DNA of 37,487 bases from Acidimicrobiales bacterium (GTDB lineage Bacteria > Actinomycetota > Acidimicrobiia > Acidimicrobiales > SZUA-35). Below the pieces are notes generated by a model. It searched no databases. It saw only the letters and a list, made by a program, of their open reading frames with translations, and was not told the DNA's origin. The stretch lies in assembly GCA_024638805.1 (NCBI GenBank), contig JAHEJO010000008.1, positions 1-37,487 of the forward strand. The letters run 5' to 3'. Numbering within the stretch: the stretch's first letter is position 1; each line of letters opens with the position of its first letter. Positions 122 through 36,664 of this stretch are shown in pieces. The position numbers and the translations under genes were made by a program.

Positions 122-314
122 GAGGACCTCGACGTTTCGGCGTGAGCCGAAACTCGGTAAGTGAGCGCCAGCGAACGACGTGGACGGAGGACCTCGACGT
201 TTCGGCGTGAGCCGAAACTCGGTATTGAGCGCCAGCGAACGACGTGGACGGAGGACCTCGACGTTTCGGCGTGAGCCGAAACTCGGTAAGTGAGCGCCAG
301 CGAACGACGTGGAC
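122..314. repeat. Three tandem copies of a 64-65 bp hairpin-containing unit (GAGGACCTCGACGTTTCGGCGTGAGCCGAAACTCGGTAAGTGAGCGCCAGCGAACGACGTGGACG)
   Basis: Units start at 122, 187 and 251. Each contains the perfect 8-bp stem GTTTCGGC-GTGA-GCCGAAAC. The middle copy differs only at ggtattgagcg vs ggtaagtgagcg. Confidence 0.97.
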
Positions 315-383
315 CGTGCTGGACTTGAACCAGCGACCTCTCGCGTGTGAGGCGAGCGCTCTAGCCAACTGAGCTAACGGTCC
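310..383 (-). tRNA. tRNA-Val (anticodon CAC)
   Basis: Reverse complement GGACCGTTAGCTCAGTTGGCTAGAGCGCTCGCCTCACACGCGAGAGGTCGCTGGTTCAAGTCCAGCACGGTCCA: 7-bp acceptor stem, D-arm, anticodon stem CTCGC/GCGAG with loop CTCACAC, T-arm GGTTCAAGTCC; no encoded CCA. Confidence 0.97.
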
Positions 384-415
384 GCTCGGGGTGTTCAGGT
401 TACCCCGTCACCGCC

Positions 416-1069
416 CTACTGGAGGCAGACGATGACTTCTTCGTCGAGCGCCCGCTCGACACGGGTCTGGGCCGGACAGAACCCATCGGGAAAACGGGCC
501 CCGATCACACGTCCGTCGTTGATCCCATCGCAGGGAACCTCGAGAAGGGTCGGCCCCTGGATGACCCGTACGCATGCGCCGGCGGGCACGCCGAGGTCGG
601 GGCTGGGCACCAAGGGTTGAGCGGGCCCGTCGGTACGGGTGGCGTAGGCGGTGAACACGAAGATCGCAGCGACGAGACCGAGGAATCCGAGCCAGGGAAT
701 GATGCTCATCATGCGCGAGTGACGCACGCTGATCGCGTCGTCCTGGCGGCGTCGGCGAGCGGCGAGATATTCGGGATCGAGGAGCCGGGCGTCAATGCGG
801 GTGACACCCCCCTCCATCGACACTCCGTTACGGGGAGCGTTGGACCCCACCAGTCCGCGGTCGTACACCGTGCGACGTTCGTCGTTTCCGAGGACCCGGA
901 ATGCCTCGTTGACGCTGCGCATGGCCTCTTCGGCCTTCTGGGCCTCGGGCGCGGACTTGTTGACGAACCCGTCCGGGTGCCAGGCGCGCGCCTGACGGTA
1001 GTAGGCGCGTCGAATGTCCTCCGCAGTGGCGGATTTGGAGACCCCGAGAACGTCGTAGTGAGTAGGCAC
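416..1069 (-). CDS. J-domain (DnaJ-like) protein with a C-terminal transmembrane segment
   Basis: MPTHYDVLGVSKSATAEDIRRAYYRQARAWHPDGF with HPD motif; later IIPWLGFLGLVAAIFVFTAYA TM helix. Confidence 0.9.
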   Translation of the reverse strand: MPTHYDVLGVSKSATAEDIRRAYYRQARAWHPDGFVNKSAPEAQKAEEAMRSVNEAFRVLGNDERRTVYDRGLVGSNAPRNGVSMEGGVTRIDARLLDPEYLAARRRRQDDAISVRHSRMMSIIPWLGFLGLVAAIFVFTAYATRTDGPAQPLVPSPDLGVPAGACVRVIQGPTLLEVPCDGINDGRVIGARFPDGFCPAQTRVERALDEEVIVCLQ

Positions 1070-18621: not shown

Positions 18622-20916
18622 ATGACCGTCGGTCCTGTCACACCCATCGAACTGATCAACGCGGTGTACGCCACTCTCGACGAGCGGGTCGCGGCCATGC
18701 GCACTCGACTCGGGCGATCGATGACGCTGGCCGAGAAGATCCTCGCCAACCACCTCGACGACCCCGAGGCCGAGGTCGGGCGTGCCGTCAGTTACGTCGA
18801 TTTCCGGCCCGACCGGGTGGCGATGCAAGACGCCACCGCACAGATGGCGTGGCTCCAGTTCGACACCGCCGGCCTCCCGGAAGTGCAGGTCCCCACCACC
18901 ACACACTGCGACCACCTGATCCAGGCCAAGGTCGACGGGAAGAAAGACCTCCTGCGCGCTGTCGATTCGAACGAAGAGGTCTACGAATTCCTGCGTTCGA
19001 TTAGCGCCAAGTACGGCGGCGGCTTCTGGAAGCCGGGAAGCGGCATCATTCATCAGGTGGTGTTGGAGAACTACGCCTTTCCCGGCGGAATGATGATCGG
19101 CACCGACAGTCACACTCCGAACGCAGGCGGCCTCGGCATGATCGCCATCGGCGTGGGAGGAGCGGACGCGGTCGACGTGATGACCGGCTTTCCGTGGAAC
19201 GTGCGGTGGCCCAAGTTGATCGGCGTTCACCTCACCGGGCGGTTGAGCGGGTGGAGCGCTCCCAAGGACGTCATTCTCAAGGTTGCCGAGATCCTCACGG
19301 TGAAGGGCGGAACGGGGGCCATCGTCGAATACTTCGGGTCCGGGGCCAACAGTCTCTCGGCCACCGGCAAAGCGACGATCTGCAACATGGGAGCCGAGAT
19401 CGGCGCCACGACGTCGTTGTTCGCCTACGACGACGCAATGGCCCGCTACCTCAAGTCGACAGGACGTGAAGCCACAGCCGATGCCGCCAACGCGGTGGCC
19501 CATCATCTCCGAGCCGATGACGATGTGCTCAGCAGTCCGAGCGAGTACTTCGATCGCGTGATCGAGATCGACCTCGATGATTTGCACCCCCACATCAACG
19601 GTCCACACACACCCGACCTCGCCCGAGAGCTCAAGGATCTCGGGAGCGAGGCCCGCCAAAACGGCTGGCCGACCGAGATCAGCGCCGCGCTCATCGGCAG
19701 TTGCACCAACTCCAGCTACGAAGACATCACGCGGGCGGCGTCGATCGCCCGCGAAGCCGCCGCCAAGGGTCTCGAGGTCAAGACCAAACTCATGATCACT
19801 CCCGGGTCCGAACAGGTCAGGGCAACGATCGAACGCGATGGGCTCCTCGCCGACTTCGAGGCGTTGGGGGCGACCGTTCTCGCCAACGCCTGTGGGCCCT
19901 GCATCGGGCAGTGGGACCGAACCGGGGAACACGAACCGGGAGTCGCCAACACGATCGTCACGAGCTACAACCGCAACTTCCCCAAGCGCAACGACGGTGA
20001 TGCCGCCACCCTGGCGTTCGTCACGTCACCCGAAACCGTCATGGCCCTGGCTCTGGCCGGGACCATCGATTTCGACCCCATTTCGGGCACGCTCCCCAAC
20101 GAACACGGAGAACAGGTCGCCCTGTCGGTGCCGGTGGGTGTCGAATTGCCGCCTCGCGGTTTCGACGAAGGCGAATCCGGATTCATCGCACCGCCGGACA
20201 GCGGAGAGGGAATCGATGTGGCCGTGTCGCCTTCGTCGGATCGACTACAGCTTCTCACACCGTTTCGCCCCTGGGACGGGAACGACTACGCGGAACTGCC
20301 GATATTGGTGAAAGCCAAAGGCAAGTTCACCACCGACCACATCTCGATGGCCGGACCGTGGCTCAAGTACAGGGGCCATCTCGAGAACATCTCCGGCAAC
20401 CTCTACCTGGGTGCGGTCAACGCCTTCACCAGGGCCGATGGCAGCGACTATGAAGTCGGGTACGGCAAGAATCAGCTCACCGGCAACACGGAGACCTTCC
20501 CCGAGATCGCCAGGGCATACCACCAGGCCGGCCAACCATGGGTGGTCATCGGCGACGAGAACATGGGCGAGGGCTCGAGCCGGGAGCATGCTGCGATGGA
20601 ACCTCGATTTCGTCTGGGTCTGGTCGCGATCGCCCGAAGCTTCGCCCGTATACACGAAACGAACCTGAAAAAGCAGGGGATGGTGCCCCTGACCTTCGTC
20701 GACCCCGCCGACTACGACCGCATCGGCGAGGACGACCGTATCGGTCTCACCGGTCTGGCCGAGTTGACGCCCGGGCGGACGCTGACCGTCACCGTCACCA
20801 CCCTCGCCGGTTCCACCTGGTCCTTCGAAGGCGCCCACACCTTCAGCAACGAACAGATCGAGTGGTTCCATGCGGGGAGCGCTCTGAACGTGATCCGGCG
20901 CAACCTCGGCGTGTAG
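18622..20916 (+). CDS. acn: Aconitate hydratase (mitochondrial-type)
   Basis: AAGGAG RBS upstream; [100 protein letters not shown]. Confidence 0.96.
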
Positions 20917-20987
20917 TCGGATCGAGGTGTGACGTCGTCGGCTCCTCCCTCACGCCGAGTTCGAGCCGAGCCGATAGGTTCATTCCT

Positions 20988-22358
20988 ATGGCAGGCGCAG
21001 CCTTTTTCGATCTCGACCGCACACTTCTGCAGGGGGCCAGCGGGCCGCACATCTCCGCCGCGCTGCGGGCCGAGGGAGTGCTGGCGGACAAGCCGATTCG
21101 CGGCGAAGGGCTGGTGTTCGGCATCTTCAACGTGATCGGAGAAACCCTGCCGTCGATGGCCCTGACCCGGGTCGGCATCCGCGCCACGAAGGGTTGGAAT
21201 GTGGCGGCGGTCCAGGCGGCGGGCCGGCGGGTGGGACCTGTCCTTGCCGACGCGGTGCAGCCCTTCGCCCACGAGCTGATCGCCGATCACCGGGCCGCCG
21301 GCGACAAGGTCGTACTGGCCACGACAACCCCCTACGAGCTGGTGAAACCGTTTGCCGACCTGATGGGGATGGACGCCGTTCTCGCCACCCGCTATCGGTC
21401 CGTTGACGGATCCACCTACAACGGCACGGTCGACGGTGAGTTCGTGTGGAGTCGTGGCAAAGCTCGCTCGGTCAGGGCGTGGGCCCGAGCCAACCTCATC
21501 GAACTCGCCGACAGCTACGGCTACTCCGACAGCGTTTTCGACCTCCCGATGCTACGGGCGGTCGGCCATCCCACCGCCGTCAACCCCGACCCCCGCCTGT
21601 GGGCCCTCGCCAGCCTCTCTCGCTGGCCCACCGTGTGGTTGGATGCTCCCCCCGGCGTGCCCAAACCGCTCGGCATCGAACCCCAGCGCATCGTCAGGGA
21701 GTTGTTTCGCCCTGAACTACTCCTGTTCATTCGGATGGATGTCGACGGCGTCGACAATCTGGCCGATCTCAAGGGTGCGCTGATCACTCCCAATCATCGC
21801 AGCTACCTCGATCCGCTCGTGCTCGGACAAGCCGTGAGCCGCACGAACCGTCCAGTCCGCTTCCTGTCCAAGAAGGAGGTCACCGACGCCCCGATCGTGG
21901 GTCCGATCACCACTGCCATGGGGGCGATCCGGGTCGACCGTCAGGACCACAGCGGCGACCCGATGGGGGAAGCGGCGCGGGCCTTGCGCGCCGGTGAACT
22001 GGTGGCGGTCTTCCCGCAGGGCACGATCCCTCGAGGTCATGACTTCTTCGACCCCGTGCTCAAGGGCAGGTATGGGGCGGTTCGGCTGGCCCTGGACACG
22101 GGCACCCCGATCGTTCCGGTCGGCATGTGGGGTACCGAGCGGGCCTGGCCCCGCAACCGCCGACTCCCCTATTTGCTCAACCTCGCCGACCCCCCCGAGG
22201 TGCGGGTCCGCTTCGGCGAGCCGTACCATCCACCCACCGACGACCTCGAGGTCGAGACCAAACGGCTGATGGACCGAATCGTTGACCTTCTGCCCGACGT
22301 TGCGCGAGAACACCACGAGCCGACCGCAGCGGAGCTTGCCCGAACAGTTCCGGGATGA
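20988..22358 (+). CDS. HAD-IB hydrolase fused to PlsC-type 1-acylglycerol-3-phosphate acyltransferase
   Basis: AAFFDLDRTLLQGASG (DxDxT), YGYSDSVFDLPMLRAVGHPTAVNPD, then ITPNHRSYLDPLVLG (NHx4D) and VAVFPQGTIPRG. Confidence 0.93.
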   Translation: MAGAAFFDLDRTLLQGASGPHISAALRAEGVLADKPIRGEGLVFGIFNVIGETLPSMALTRVGIRATKGWNVAAVQAAGRRVGPVLADAVQPFAHELIADHRAAGDKVVLATTTPYELVKPFADLMGMDAVLATRYRSVDGSTYNGTVDGEFVWSRGKARSVRAWARANLIELADSYGYSDSVFDLPMLRAVGHPTAVNPDPRLWALASLSRWPTVWLDAPPGVPKPLGIEPQRIVRELFRPELLLFIRMDVDGVDNLADLKGALITPNHRSYLDPLVLGQAVSRTNRPVRFLSKKEVTDAPIVGPITTAMGAIRVDRQDHSGDPMGEAARALRAGELVAVFPQGTIPRGHDFFDPVLKGRYGAVRLALDTGTPIVPVGMWGTERAWPRNRRLPYLLNLADPPEVRVRFGEPYHPPTDDLEVETKRLMDRIVDLLPDVAREHHEPTAAELARTVPG

Positions 22359-23251
22359 GCCTTCTGCTCTGCGTCGGCGAAGCACTGGTCGACCTTCTGC
22401 GGTCCGACACCGACACTTCGGGCATCCGGGCGGTTCCCGGCGGCGGGCCGATGAACGCCGCCATCGCCGCCGCTCGACTCGGGGTCCCCACCGCCTTCGT
22501 CGGGCGAGTCTCGACCGACCCGTACGGTGAGCGGATTTGGTCGCACCTGCTCGCCAGCAATGTGATCCTCGATGCCGCCCAACGAGGCCGCGAGCCGACC
22601 GCCACCGCCGAGGTGAAAACCGAACCGATCCAACGCTTCGTGTTCTCCGGCACCGGGACCGCCGACACGCTTCTCGACGCAGTCGATCTCGCATCCCTCC
22701 CCGACGAGCCGGCCATTCTCCACGGCGGCACCCTCGGGCTCTTTCGAGGCCAGACTGCGATCACGCTGGCCGAGTTGGCCTCCGCTTTCCCAGGACTCGT
22801 CAGTCTCGATCCCAACGTCCGTCCGGCGATGATCGGGGACCGGGCTCGCTGGTGGTACTTCGCCGACCGCTGGATCGATCGAGCGAACCTCGTGCGCGGC
22901 AGCGACGAGGACTTCGAATGGATGGGGGTCACCGTCGATGATCTCCTCGCCCGCGGTGTCGGGGCGGTCGTACGCACACTCGGTGCCGACGGAGCCGAGG
23001 TCGCGTTGGCATCGGGTGGCGGCGTCCGAGCCGCCGGTGACCGAATCGAGTTCGTCGATGCGGTGGGCGCCGGCGACTCGTTCTGTGGGGCGTTGCTCGC
23101 CAGCTTGTACGAGGCGGGCACGACCGTCGAGACCTTCCACCAACTCGATGCTCACTGGTGGAAATCGACACTCGAGTTCGCCGTCCGGGTCGCCGGTATC
23201 ACGTGTTCGCGACCCGGGGCCGACCCACCGTGGCGGCACGAACTCGGTTGA
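22355..23251 (+). CDS. PfkB-family carbohydrate kinase (fructokinase-like)
   Basis: LLLCVGEALVDLL, VPGGGPMNAAIAAARLGVPTAFVGRVSTDPYG, DAVGAGDSFCGALLASL; start overlaps previous stop by 4 nt. Confidence 0.93.
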   Translation: MSLLLCVGEALVDLLRSDTDTSGIRAVPGGGPMNAAIAAARLGVPTAFVGRVSTDPYGERIWSHLLASNVILDAAQRGREPTATAEVKTEPIQRFVFSGTGTADTLLDAVDLASLPDEPAILHGGTLGLFRGQTAITLAELASAFPGLVSLDPNVRPAMIGDRARWWYFADRWIDRANLVRGSDEDFEWMGVTVDDLLARGVGAVVRTLGADGAEVALASGGGVRAAGDRIEFVDAVGAGDSFCGALLASLYEAGTTVETFHQLDAHWWKSTLEFAVRVAGITCSRPGADPPWRHELG

Positions 23252-23360
23252 AACAGAAGAAGCCGGCCGCTTCTGAGCGACCGGCTTCTTGTTGACGCCG
23301 ATTGGAAAGGGGGAAACCGACTCGGCGTCAGCTGTATGCATCAAAGGGGGAGATGCAGAC
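23252..23360 (-). ncRNA. 6C-RNA-like small RNA: two stem-loops with C-rich loops followed by a terminator hairpin
   Basis: Minus strand: TGCATC-TCCCCCTTT-GATGCA (23337-23357); TGACGCCGA-GTCGGTTTCCCCCTTTCCAA-TCGGCGTCA (23293-23330); then AAGAAGCCGG...CCGGCTTCTT + TCTGTTT (23290-23251). Matches the architecture of the actinobacterial 6C RNA family. Confidence 0.82.
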
Positions 23361-23439
23361 CTTCACATTACCTCGGCCCGGCCCGGCTGAGCAGGCGCTT
23401 TGATGTGAAAATCGTCATAGACGCCAGCGGCAATGCGGG

Positions 23440-24816
23440 CTACAGCGGCATGTTGTCGTGCCGGCGAGCCCGAAGACGTTCCCGCTTCGACGACAGCATC
23501 GCCACGGCGTCGCTCACCTCGATACGGGTGTGGGATGGCGCGATCACCGCGGTGATACTCCCTCGCTCCGCAGCCTGGTACGGGGTGAGATGCGTCGCCT
23601 CGTACTCGGCGACAAGACCCGCTTTGTCCAGTTCGCTGGCCCCGCGGTGGAGAATCTCCACCGCCCCCTTGGCCCCCATGACCGCCACCTCGGCGGTGGG
23701 CCACGCCAGCATCACATCGTTGCCCATGTTGACCGAGTCCATCACGATGTACGCACCGCCGTAGGACTTGCGCAGGATCAGCCCGACGCGGGGCACGGTG
23801 GCCCGAGCATAAGCGAACGCCAATTGGGCACCGTGACGGATCATGCCCCGCCATTCGAGGTCTTTACCGGGAAGGAATCCGCTCGTGTCGACAACGGTGA
23901 GGAGGGGCACATTGAACGAATCGCAGAAGCCGACAAAACGAGCCCCTTTCTGACTGGCCGAGATGTCGATGCTGCCGGCCATCGATTGGGTCTGGTTGGC
24001 CACGATGCCCACCGGATGGCCACCGACCGATGCGAACCCGACGACAAGATTCGGGGCCCACTGGGCCCTGAGTTCGCTGAAGACGCCATCGTCGATGATG
24101 GTTGCGATCACCGACCGGACGTCGTAAGAACCAGTCGCCGTCGTCGGCAGCAGCTCCCCCGCCTCGGGGGTCGCCCGATCGGCCGGGTCGTCGGTCGGGA
24201 TCATCGCGGGCATCTGATCCACGTGATCAGGGAGGTAGCCGAGGATCTCGAGCAGGTAGTCCTCGGCCTGAACCGGCGTCTCGACGACCGTCGCAGCGAG
24301 CCCACTACTGCGCTGGTGAGAGCCGGCGCCCCCCAGGGCTAGACCGCTGACGTCGGTGCCGGTGAAATCGCGCACCATCTGGGGTCCGGACAGATAAGCG
24401 TACGCATCAGCGGTGAACACCACCACGTCGGCCAGGGCGAGGAGAAACGACGGACCCGACAGGACCGGGCCGTCGGCGATGAACAGGAGCGGCACTACTC
24501 CGCTGCACCGCACCATCTCACGGGCGATGCGACTCCACGCAACGGATGGGGCCAGACCTTCGGTCAGGCCGACGCCGGCGGCGGTGATGTCAGCGATCAC
24601 AGGCAGCCGCTGTTCTCTGGCCGCCCGCAGCCCGGACTCGACGACCAGGCAGTCCGACTCGGTGAGCTTGTCGCCGGGACGGGAGCCGTGGAGCGCGATC
24701 CTGACGACGCGACGATCCCCCAGCCAGGTCACCCGAGCACTGGATCGGACCGGCACCGCGGCGCGCAGATCGATCGTTCGATCGTCTGCGTGGGTCTCGG
24801 CGTCGATCAGGGCCAC
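23440..24816 (-). CDS. Acyl-CoA carboxylase carboxyltransferase (AccD/PccB-like)
   Basis: GGHPVGIVANQTQSMAGSIDISASQKGARFVGFCDSFNVPLLTVVDTSGFLPGKDLEWRGMIRHGAQLAFAYA..VPRVGLILRKSYGGAYIVMDS, MGAKGAVEILHR. GTG start (VALIDAETHADDRTIDL) at 24816; the upstream ORF extension is antisense to mftE. Confidence 0.9.
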   Translation of the reverse strand: MALIDAETHADDRTIDLRAAVPVRSSARVTWLGDRRVVRIALHGSRPGDKLTESDCLVVESGLRAAREQRLPVIADITAAGVGLTEGLAPSVAWSRIAREMVRCSGVVPLLFIADGPVLSGPSFLLALADVVVFTADAYAYLSGPQMVRDFTGTDVSGLALGGAGSHQRSSGLAATVVETPVQAEDYLLEILGYLPDHVDQMPAMIPTDDPADRATPEAGELLPTTATGSYDVRSVIATIIDDGVFSELRAQWAPNLVVGFASVGGHPVGIVANQTQSMAGSIDISASQKGARFVGFCDSFNVPLLTVVDTSGFLPGKDLEWRGMIRHGAQLAFAYARATVPRVGLILRKSYGGAYIVMDSVNMGNDVMLAWPTAEVAVMGAKGAVEILHRGASELDKAGLVAEYEATHLTPYQAAERGSITAVIAPSHTRIEVSDAVAMLSSKRERLRARRHDNMPL

Positions 24817-24873
24817 GCCACGTTTGTAGCGCACCGGTTGGTCGGCCACCGGCGCTTGCGGGAGAATGGTCCG

Positions 24874-25584
24874 GTGAACCCTGGCGTACCGTTCTGCCTC
24901 GGCAGCCTGACATCGAGCGAGATCCCGGGTGAGGTCGTACTGCTCATCCCTCTCGGCGCAACCGAACAGCACGGACCACACCTGCCGCTCGACACCGACA
25001 CCCGCATCGCCGTGGCCTGGGCCGAGGGCCTTGCGTCGAGGCTCGCGTCGACCAGTTTCGGGAGCGTGGTCCTCGTCGCTCCGCCGATGTGCTTCGGCTC
25101 CAGCGGTGAACACCAGGGTTTCGTCGGAACGATGAGCGTCGGCGGGCCCGTCGTCAGATCGGTCGTGGTGGAGCTGGCCCGGTCCGTGCGTGCGAACGTT
25201 GCTGCTGTCGTGTACGTGAACGGTCATTCCGGCAATCGCCGGCCGGTCACCGATGCCGTGCACCAACTCCGCGACGAAGGCCACAATGTCGCAGCGATCT
25301 TCCCGGTCATCGAAGGTGGCGATGCCCACGCAGGTCACACCGAGACCTCGCTGATGCTGCACCTCCATCCCCAGCTGGTCCGGCGCGACCGTGCCGAACC
25401 GGGTCGGGACGAGAGCTTGCCCGAGCTGCTGGCCGAGCTCAAACGGGACGGCGTACGTTCGGTCTCGCCGAATGGCATCCTCGGCGACCCGACCGGTGCC
25501 ACCGCAGCACAAGGGCGCCGGATCTTCGAACAACTGATTCGGCACGGTGTCACCGAAGTGGCCGGTACCGTCGGTGTGCTGTAG
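24874..25584 (+). CDS. mftE: Creatininase-family protein, MftE-like (mycofactocin peptidase type)
   Basis: GTG start; VVLLIPLGATEQHGPHLPLDTDTRIAVAWAEGLA, PPMCFGSSGEHQGFVGTMSVG, VYVNGHSGNRRPV, GDAHAGHTETSLMLHLHPQLV. MftE assignment supported by the adjacent MftF-like gene. Confidence 0.78.
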   Translation: MNPGVPFCLGSLTSSEIPGEVVLLIPLGATEQHGPHLPLDTDTRIAVAWAEGLASRLASTSFGSVVLVAPPMCFGSSGEHQGFVGTMSVGGPVVRSVVVELARSVRANVAAVVYVNGHSGNRRPVTDAVHQLRDEGHNVAAIFPVIEGGDAHAGHTETSLMLHLHPQLVRRDRAEPGRDESLPELLAELKRDGVRSVSPNGILGDPTGATAAQGRRIFEQLIRHGVTEVAGTVGVL

Positions 25585-26965
25585 TCCCACACCGGGGCTC
25601 CAACGACTCGATGGCGGTCGGATTCTCCTCGGCGGATCGCCGCGGCGCTTGCTCAAGCTGTCCGCACGGGGCGCGTCTCTCGTCAGCGAATGGTTGGCCG
25701 GGCAGGCCGAGCCCGTTTCACCGGCGCAGCGTCAACTCATGTGGCACCTGGTCGAATCGGGGATGGTCAGCCCACCACAACCCTCACCCGGATCGATCGA
25801 ACCCACCGATGTGATCATCCCCGTGTACGACGACCCGGTGGGTCTCGCGTTCACGCTGGCGGGTTTGGCCCATGACGACGAAGGACTGAACATCACCGTT
25901 GTCGATGACGGGTCGCCCACATCGGTCGAGCTACCCGACTGGGCGGCTGGCCGGGTCGCTCTGATTCGCTCGAGTACCAATGGCGGTCCCGCGACAGCCC
26001 GCACGGTCGGAATCACCGCCACCGAGAACGAGATCGTCGTGTTCGTCGACGCTGGAGTGCGGATCACGCCGAAGACGGTGAGGGCATTGGCTGCCTGGTG
26101 TACGAAGACCGATGGCATCGTCGCCGCCGGACCCCGCATCGTGGTTCCACCCCCGACCGGACCGCTGGATCGATACGAGGCATCTCATTCCGTACTGGAC
26201 GTCGGCCGTGGTCTCCGGAGCCCGGAGATCGTCGGCCCGGGACGTCCGGTCGGGTATCTGCCGACCGCTGCGCTGGCGGTCCGGCGCCAGGCTCTGGAGG
26301 CGATCGACGGGTTCGACCCGAGGTTCCGATACGGCGAGGACGTGGATCTCGTTTGGCGACTCGATCGAATCGGGTCGGTCGTTGTCGATCCGGCTCTTTC
26401 GGTCACCCATCCGGCGCGGGCCACGATCATCGAGTTCATGGTCCAGCGTTTTCGCTACGGGACCTCGGCCGGATTGCTGGCCGCAAAGCACGGCCGCACG
26501 ATGGCTCCGTTTCGAGTTGATCGAGCCGTTGCCGTCGCTCTGGTCGGGTCCATCGTTCTGCCGCTTGTGCCCGCTACGGCCGTGGCCGTCGGCACGGTCG
26601 TCCTCGAGACCGGTCGGAGAGCGGCGCAGTTCCGGACGTGGTGTGACGGGACACCGGGTTCGGCGGCCCGTGGGGCGATCGAGAACCTTCGGTCAACGGC
26701 GCAGGTTACGGTGGCGTTCACCGGGGTCGCCGGTCGAGCCTGGTGGCCGATCACGCTGATCGCCGTGGCGCAGGCGCGATCGCCGAGATTGCGAGCCCGG
26801 GCGAGAGGGATTGCGCTCGGATGGCTGATCAGAAACGCCGCTCACAGGGACCTCGGCGCGATCGCAATCGCTGTGCTCGACGACCTGTCCTATGGGATCG
26901 GAGTGTGGTACGGGAGTCTACGGGCCAGGACAGCGCGGGCCCTCGTGCCGACTATGTGGCGATGA
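25574..26965 (+). CDS. mftF: Family 2 glycosyltransferase, MftF-like
   Basis: GLQRLDGGRILLGGSPRRLLKLSARGASLVSEWL N-terminal domain followed by GT2 core TDVIIPVYDDPVGL, ITVVDDGSP, NGGPATARTVGI, FRYGEDVDLVWRL; overlaps the mftE stop. Confidence 0.78.
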   Translation: MCCSPTPGLQRLDGGRILLGGSPRRLLKLSARGASLVSEWLAGQAEPVSPAQRQLMWHLVESGMVSPPQPSPGSIEPTDVIIPVYDDPVGLAFTLAGLAHDDEGLNITVVDDGSPTSVELPDWAAGRVALIRSSTNGGPATARTVGITATENEIVVFVDAGVRITPKTVRALAAWCTKTDGIVAAGPRIVVPPPTGPLDRYEASHSVLDVGRGLRSPEIVGPGRPVGYLPTAALAVRRQALEAIDGFDPRFRYGEDVDLVWRLDRIGSVVVDPALSVTHPARATIIEFMVQRFRYGTSAGLLAAKHGRTMAPFRVDRAVAVALVGSIVLPLVPATAVAVGTVVLETGRRAAQFRTWCDGTPGSAARGAIENLRSTAQVTVAFTGVAGRAWWPITLIAVAQARSPRLRARARGIALGWLIRNAAHRDLGAIAIAVLDDLSYGIGVWYGSLRARTARALVPTMWR

Positions 26966-36267: not shown

Positions 36268-36606
<339 letters not shown>

Positions 36607-36664
36607 CACACTACAACGGTGTAATTCCTGGTCAGAGGCCTAGAGCCCAGTATCTATGCGGGTT

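Follow-up and report, generated by a model that had tools for sequence, protein, structure and literature searches.

Among the trans-acting sRNAs of Actinomycetota, those with C-rich loops, such as 6C, are some of the better studied. The 6C RNA (RF01066; B11 in M. tuberculosis and M. abscessus) comes from a stand-alone gene, is ~100 nt long, carries runs of C in the loops of two stem-loops and ends in an intrinsic terminator. Either of the two C-rich loops of B11/6C is enough to repress a target or reporter with a G6 tract in the 5' UTR (PMC10470900), and the 6C RNA of C. glutamicum is reported to be part of the GlxR network (PMC4046766). C-rich single-stranded loops are also putative pairing seeds in ar7 (RF02342), an alphaproteobacterial sRNA, and in Agrobacterium PmaR (PMC6234868). 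A literature search linking 6C-type RNA with Acidimicrobiia found no paper. The locus analyzed here, from an Acidimicrobiales genome (G000), contains what is, by sequence comparison, a real, conserved small RNA gene of 6C-like design, outside Rfam 6C as searched.

The window (the whole 37,487-nucleotide stretch of DNA that was analyzed) carries this gene on its minus strand at positions 23250-23358. The predicted transcript is ~105 nt, its ends being placed from the -10 box (5') and the terminator (3'). The minus strand of 23250-23370 reads TAATGTGAAGGTCT GCATCTCCCCCTTTGATGC ATACAGC TGACGCCGAGTCGGTTTCCCCCTTTCCAATCGGCGTCA AC AAGAAGCCGGTCGCTCAGAAGCGGCCGGCTTCTT CTGTTTC. As described in the initial annotation, two minus-strand hairpins with 6-bp and 9-bp stems display near-identical pyrimidine loops containing five C each. 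Hairpin 1 (TGCATC-TCCCCCTTT-GATGCA; 23337-23357, minus strand) exposes its loop, TCCCCCTTT, at 23343-23351. Hairpin 2 (TGACGCCGA...TCGGCGTCA; 23293-23330, minus strand) has a C-rich loop on a 9-bp stem as had been claimed, but not the exact loop: the stem closes a 20-nt loop, inside which a GG/CC pair closes an 11-nt C-rich loop (TTTCCCCCTTT, 23306-23316). Likewise, the terminator hairpin and its T-rich tail are present (23257-23290, minus strand), but with one 15-bp stem in place of the 10+4 bp originally read. The 121-nt region folds at -54 kcal/mol, as compared to -31.2 +/- 3.5 for shuffled sequences (z = -6.5), and none of 200 shuffles folded as well. Only one perfect 6-bp stem with a G-free loop of at least five consecutive C occurs in the window, and it is hairpin 1; dinucleotide shuffles of the window predict 0.21.

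Upstream of the RNA gene is a carboxyltransferase gene (Carboxyl_trans, PF01039, E 3e-103; 23440-24822, minus strand, start approximate), and convergent with it is a gene for a pfkB-family sugar kinase (PF00294, E 1.1e-28; 22355-23251, plus strand). A HAD hydrolase/acyltransferase (PlsC-like) fusion (PF12710 and PF01553; plus strand) is the other syntenic marker; its coordinates, 20538-22358, are ORF limits and its true start is near 21000. The RNA starts ~82 nt beyond the carboxyltransferase stop (23440), in agreement with the earlier estimate of ~80 nt, and its terminator abuts the pfkB stop (23251), also as noted before. This terminator may end pfkB on the plus strand as well.

The RNA had been put forward as 6C itself. 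Like 6C, it belongs to Actinomycetota, measures ~100 nt, is encoded by a stand-alone gene, and combines two stem-loops bearing C-runs with an intrinsic terminator at the end. The two differ, however, in detail. The stems are 6 and 9 bp as compared to ~12 and ~13 bp in true 6C (L109-L118), and the loops have five C with a U3 tail (UCCCCCUUU), whereas those of 6C have six or more C, such as GACCCCCCGG and CUCCUCCCCCCCUGG. The terminator is a separate third hairpin in the window and its family, whereas in 6C hairpin 2 (~13 bp) runs directly into the U-tract. The synteny is also different. Searches with RF01066 gave no match at the gathering score (47 bits) in the window, none at E<=10 on a 501-base stretch or in seven relatives, and none in G000 together with 40 relatives. 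That the search works is indicated by the 6C RNAs it recovers in 10 of 150 genomes of the phylum; none of these genomes is listed in this class. Ms1 RNA, whose linkage is a trait of mycobacterial 6C RNAs, was not found in the 37-kb window. The 6C identity was thus not borne out, and by sequence the RNA falls outside the Rfam 6C family as searched. The shared design nevertheless suggests, by analogy, that it most likely works like 6C.

When the DNA of 60 relatives was searched, the element turned up, at 79-90% identity, in three (G001-G003) of the four other species of the genus. The loop of hairpin 1 is identical in the four species that have the element, save for one extra T in one of them, and a 26-nt stretch at hairpin 2, GACGCCGAGTCGGTTTCCCCCTTTCC, is invariant in all four. 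Both loops keep five C throughout. The hairpin region is nearly invariant while the DNA beside the promoter box (described below) has 23-35% identity, approximately the random level (25%), and this indicates strong purifying selection on the RNA. The remaining member of the genus, G004, has no match to the element; this absence says little because the assembly is 81% complete and the carboxyltransferase locus is missing too. A small-protein reading of the conserved stretch was rejected, as the spacer lengths between hairpins differ by non-multiples of three and one loop contains the extra T. The exact two-loop pattern was found in 62 stretches among 84,980 species genomes. Three of these are the element itself, on the Acidimicrobiales contigs of G001-G003, and the rest, many of them cyanobacterial, look like repeats or chance.

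The placement of the RNA differs between species of the genus. In both the window and L002 it lies between the carboxyltransferase and a convergent gene, which is pfkB in the window and PlsC in L002; in L003 it comes after PlsC, on the same strand. This variation suggests that the RNA is an independent unit. A local rearrangement is seen in G002 (L107, G002:C65:4500-12500), where ~3 kb of a single contig separates the RNA from the carboxyltransferase and an aminopeptidase-like gene (identified by eye) is beside the RNA on the opposite strand.

Conservation upstream of the hairpins supports the suggestion, made from the hexamer TAATGT, that the RNA has its own promoter. This predicted -10 hexamer (23365-23370, minus strand) belongs to a TAnnnT series at matching positions in the four species (TAATGT, TAGGAT, TAAGGT and TAGTAT), 7-10 nt ahead of hairpin 1. 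Further upstream, at 23404-23419 on the minus strand, is a putative promoter box, TATGACNNNTTTCACA, an imperfect inverted repeat of the CRP-like form TATGA-N6-TCACA that is conserved in the four species, with 13 of its 16 positions invariant. The two ten-base bins of the box have 72-77% identity as compared to ~25% in both flanks, and the distance from the box centre to the start of the -10 hexamer is 41.5-42.5 nt in every species. The exact TATGACNNNTTTCACA motif is present in one copy per genome in these four species, solely at the RNA gene, and was not found in G004, which is itself without the RNA. In one half, the box resembles a CRP/GlxR site. CRP as the factor at this box was considered and rejected: canonical TGTGA-N6-TCACA sites are rare, with 1-3 per genome (controls 0-1), and a CRP regulon is unsupported.

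The carboxyltransferase loci of 26 genomes from nine other genera of the family were compared to assess the wider distribution of the RNA. In at least 20 of the 26 loci, representing seven genera, there is an RNA in which two hairpins with C-rich loops (three in L097) are accompanied by a terminator. It is nearly always on the opposite strand to the carboxyltransferase and slightly more than 1 kb upstream of that gene. The family members keep C5-6 loops on stems whose sequences have been replaced, hairpin 2 of many relatives has six or more C, and a terminator stem of the type GAAACCGGTCGC..GCGGCCGGTTTC recurs across the family. L098 has a single C-rich-loop hairpin, and in genus g2 the matches at these loci were all weak or cut off. 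In L097 (250-403, plus strand), three C-rich-loop hairpins stand in a row before the terminator, and it seems to be a family member that gained a loop.

A covariance model built from the window's genus only (R1) found nothing outside the genus except L106; it was too narrow and was replaced by R2, for which seven sequences were used, all from one other genus and none from the window's genus. R2 matches the window at 23250-23369 on the minus strand with 40.7 bits (E 1.5e-9 over 194 kb), and in the window's genome this element is the sole match (E 2.2e-8). R2 also matches all four loci of the window's genus and, at E<=1e-4, 22 of the 26 loci from other genera; seven of these 22 are the sequences from which the model was made. 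In a 26-row alignment (25 loci and one antisense terminator match in L103) that was fitted to R2 and so leans toward the model, 93.4% of cells are paired, both partners have changed in 26 of 29 pairs, and covariation scores 0.587 as compared to 0.193 when shuffled and at most 0.106 when slid. An unfitted MAFFT alignment of seven sequences scored 0.409 as compared to 0.221 when shuffled, and single-sequence folds of six members gave z from -4.5 to -8.0. The window element combines a match to R2, two C-rich loops, a terminator and carboxyltransferase/PlsC synteny. The original proposal of a small, unannotated RNA that carries two C-rich loops is supported: relatives retain the C-runs and the pairing, and the covariation that had been suggested as a check is seen. 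Sequence comparison thus shows conservation of RNA structure and loops, synteny across the family, and conserved promoter elements.

The other genera differ from the window's genus upstream of the RNA. Of 21 loci examined, 18 have a LysR-type gene that starts ~120-240 nt upstream of the RNA on the opposite strand and is followed by the carboxyltransferase. In L085 the LysR-type gene is identified by PF00126/PF03466, and a citrate synthase gene comes after the carboxyltransferase. OxyS of E. coli is an sRNA divergent to the LysR-type regulator OxyR, and the RNA gene in these genera is similarly divergent to a LysR-type regulator gene. Unlike OxyS, however, the RNA has a partner that does not match OxyR: its best scores are with the models for CynR and GltC, under the cut-off of each, and it is missing from the window's genus. 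No sequence relation between the two RNAs was seen. An ortholog of the LysR protein was not found in the window's genus, where the best match, at 29% identity, was in G002 only. The simplest reading is that LysR was lost and the RNA retained. A sigma-70-like -35/-10 pattern (TTGACA-like, then GAT, then TAnnnT) precedes the RNA in 13 of 19 loci as compared to 0.04 in shuffles, and an ATCT-N7-9-AGAT box is upstream in seven of 19 as compared to 0.23, ratios that are optimistic given that both patterns were picked after inspection. Neither pattern was found in the window's genus. In L086, upstream of the RNA (331-457, minus strand) and by the divergent LysR gene, are two adjacent palindromes, ATCTG-N5-CAGAT and ATCTGTCC-N8-GGACAGAT, a likely LysR operator.

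These arrangements bear on whether the RNA is part of a neighbouring transcript. In 15 of the 21 other-genus loci, the RNA is followed on its own strand, after 70-220 nt, by the HAD motif of the HAD/PlsC gene, as would be seen if the RNA acted in cis as a 5' leader or attenuator, originally for that gene. A leader role may apply in those genera; as an explanation of the RNA in general it is unlikely. The RNA of the window and of L002 converges on its downstream neighbour and so has no gene to lead, that of L003 follows PlsC, and the sequence constraint is equally strong in all three; moreover, the RNA ends in a strong terminator for which no alternative antiterminator was seen. The initial annotation had also allowed for derivation from a 3' UTR. 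A reading of the RNA as the 3' UTR of the carboxyltransferase mRNA with its terminator, perhaps released by processing, would agree with its position in the window, on the same strand shortly beyond the carboxyltransferase stop and with a terminator at its end. We consider this very improbable, as the RNA is not downstream of the carboxyltransferase in L003 or in seven other genera, its orientation and placement vary among relatives, and the conserved box and -10 hexamer lie between the stop and the RNA. Neither explanation holds in the window's genus, given neighbours that vary between species and a promoter that is conserved. An RNA found variously after the carboxyltransferase, after PlsC (L003) and beside LysR is neither a fixed UTR nor the leader of one gene.

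We regard the RNA, with good though incomplete confidence, as an independently transcribed regulatory RNA whose loops pair in trans with G-rich mRNA sites. We infer its transcription, its control by LysR and the trans action of its loops as follows. The two short hairpins would display C5 loops (UCCCCCUUU), and these would base-pair in trans with G-rich mRNA stretches (sites of the AAAGGGGGA and AAGGGGGA types), most likely at or near ribosome-binding sites. Pairing would alter the translation or stability of several mRNAs, and the separate terminator hairpin would end and protect the RNA. In most of the family the divergent LysR regulator probably controls the RNA gene, and in the window's genus another factor probably acts at TATGACNNNTTTCACA to read the promoter.

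Candidate target sites were sought in four genomes with AAAGGGGGA, the 9-mer complement of the loops. There are 50 sites as compared to 42 for a reversed control, no clear excess, and eight of the 50 are the RNA gene's own two loops; outside the gene there are 7-17 sites per genome. Four sites are 3-6 nt before an ATG start codon, ahead of genes that were named by eye as encoding a LacI-type regulator, a sugar ABC permease, an acyl-CoA ligase and an uncharacterised protein. Each of these occurs in one species only, and no candidate target site is common between species in the four genomes. The proposed search for such sites near start codons therefore yielded no target that we would claim. A related motif, AAAGGGGGAAA, occurs almost exclusively in the RNA gene itself. 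The failure to find conserved mRNA targets, as well as the presence of two equal loops on separate hairpins, would also fit a protein sponge, in which the C-rich loops of a sequestering or structural RNA are protein-binding sites and not mRNA-pairing seeds. This is improbable, given that the experimentally studied C-rich-loop RNAs of like layout (6C/B11) pair with G-rich mRNA sites.

RNAs with C-rich loops of 5-8 C are also present in other families of the class (L121, L124, L128, L135 and L106). In L121 and L124 (around 1501-1630) the loop of the terminator hairpin is C-rich as well, L135 carries three such loops, and hairpin 2 of L128 and of L106 doubles as the terminator, which is the 6C layout. 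Among the R2 matches outside the family, L121, L124, L128 and L135 clearly have C-rich-loop hairpins on inspection; most other class-wide matches were rejected as terminator-only or as a tRNA plus terminator (L126). A deep link of the RNA family to 6C is possible. The stronger proposal, that the RNA is a true but highly diverged member of 6C, homologous to RF01066 and retained in Acidimicrobiia, is doubtful but deserves some weight. The phylum and the two-hairpin C-rich-loop design are the same, and the distant L128 and L106 have loops of 6-8 C together with hairpin 2 as terminator, as in 6C. The CRP-like promoter box of the window can also be set beside the GlxR network of 6C, GlxR being a CRP-type regulator. 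The common features are few and easily convergent, however, RF01066 finds no match even at E<=10, R2 reaches nothing significant on true 6C loci (best 12 bits, E 0.19), and the Ms1 RNA that accompanies 6C in mycobacteria is missing from the window.

It is about evenly balanced whether the RNA represents a separate, undescribed family of C-rich-loop sRNAs that spans an Acidimicrobiales family, with two- to three-loop relatives elsewhere in the class, and forms an OxyR/OxyS-like pair with the divergent LysR, the window's genus having lost the regulator and re-wired the RNA to another promoter box with its loops frozen. If this is the case, loops that stayed frozen after re-wiring imply an RNA with its own conserved set of targets. 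The occurrence of the RNA with LysR in most genera and without it in one provides a natural test of sRNA re-wiring in which the pairing loops are kept. In the genomes searched, matches to Rfam 6C were confined to certain lineages, and the same design, backed by strong covariation and synteny, is now seen in a largely uncultured class, in which the R2 model could be used to annotate many genomes.

The window was also compared with other known RNAs. Like ar7 and PmaR, the RNA has C-rich single-stranded loops as putative pairing seeds; unlike ar7 and other C-rich-loop sRNAs, it comes from another phylum, and the likeness is limited to those loops. No ar7 match was found in the window. The best ar7 score among relatives, 37.4 bits for the distant L106, is below the gathering score of 60. 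Weak matches of the window to ar-type, Mcr7 and mir-341 models were rejected as chance level. In the whole window, cmscan reports two matches at gathering level, a class A RNase P RNA (36270-36608, plus strand, 258.9 bits) and a tRNA gene (310-383, minus strand); the small RNA gene itself matches no catalogued family. Beside the carboxyltransferase gene are two mycofactocin genes on the plus strand, both above their NCBIfam cut-offs: mftE, for a creatininase-like peptidase (24688-25584; TIGR03964), and mftF, for a glycosyltransferase (25547-26965; TIGR03965).
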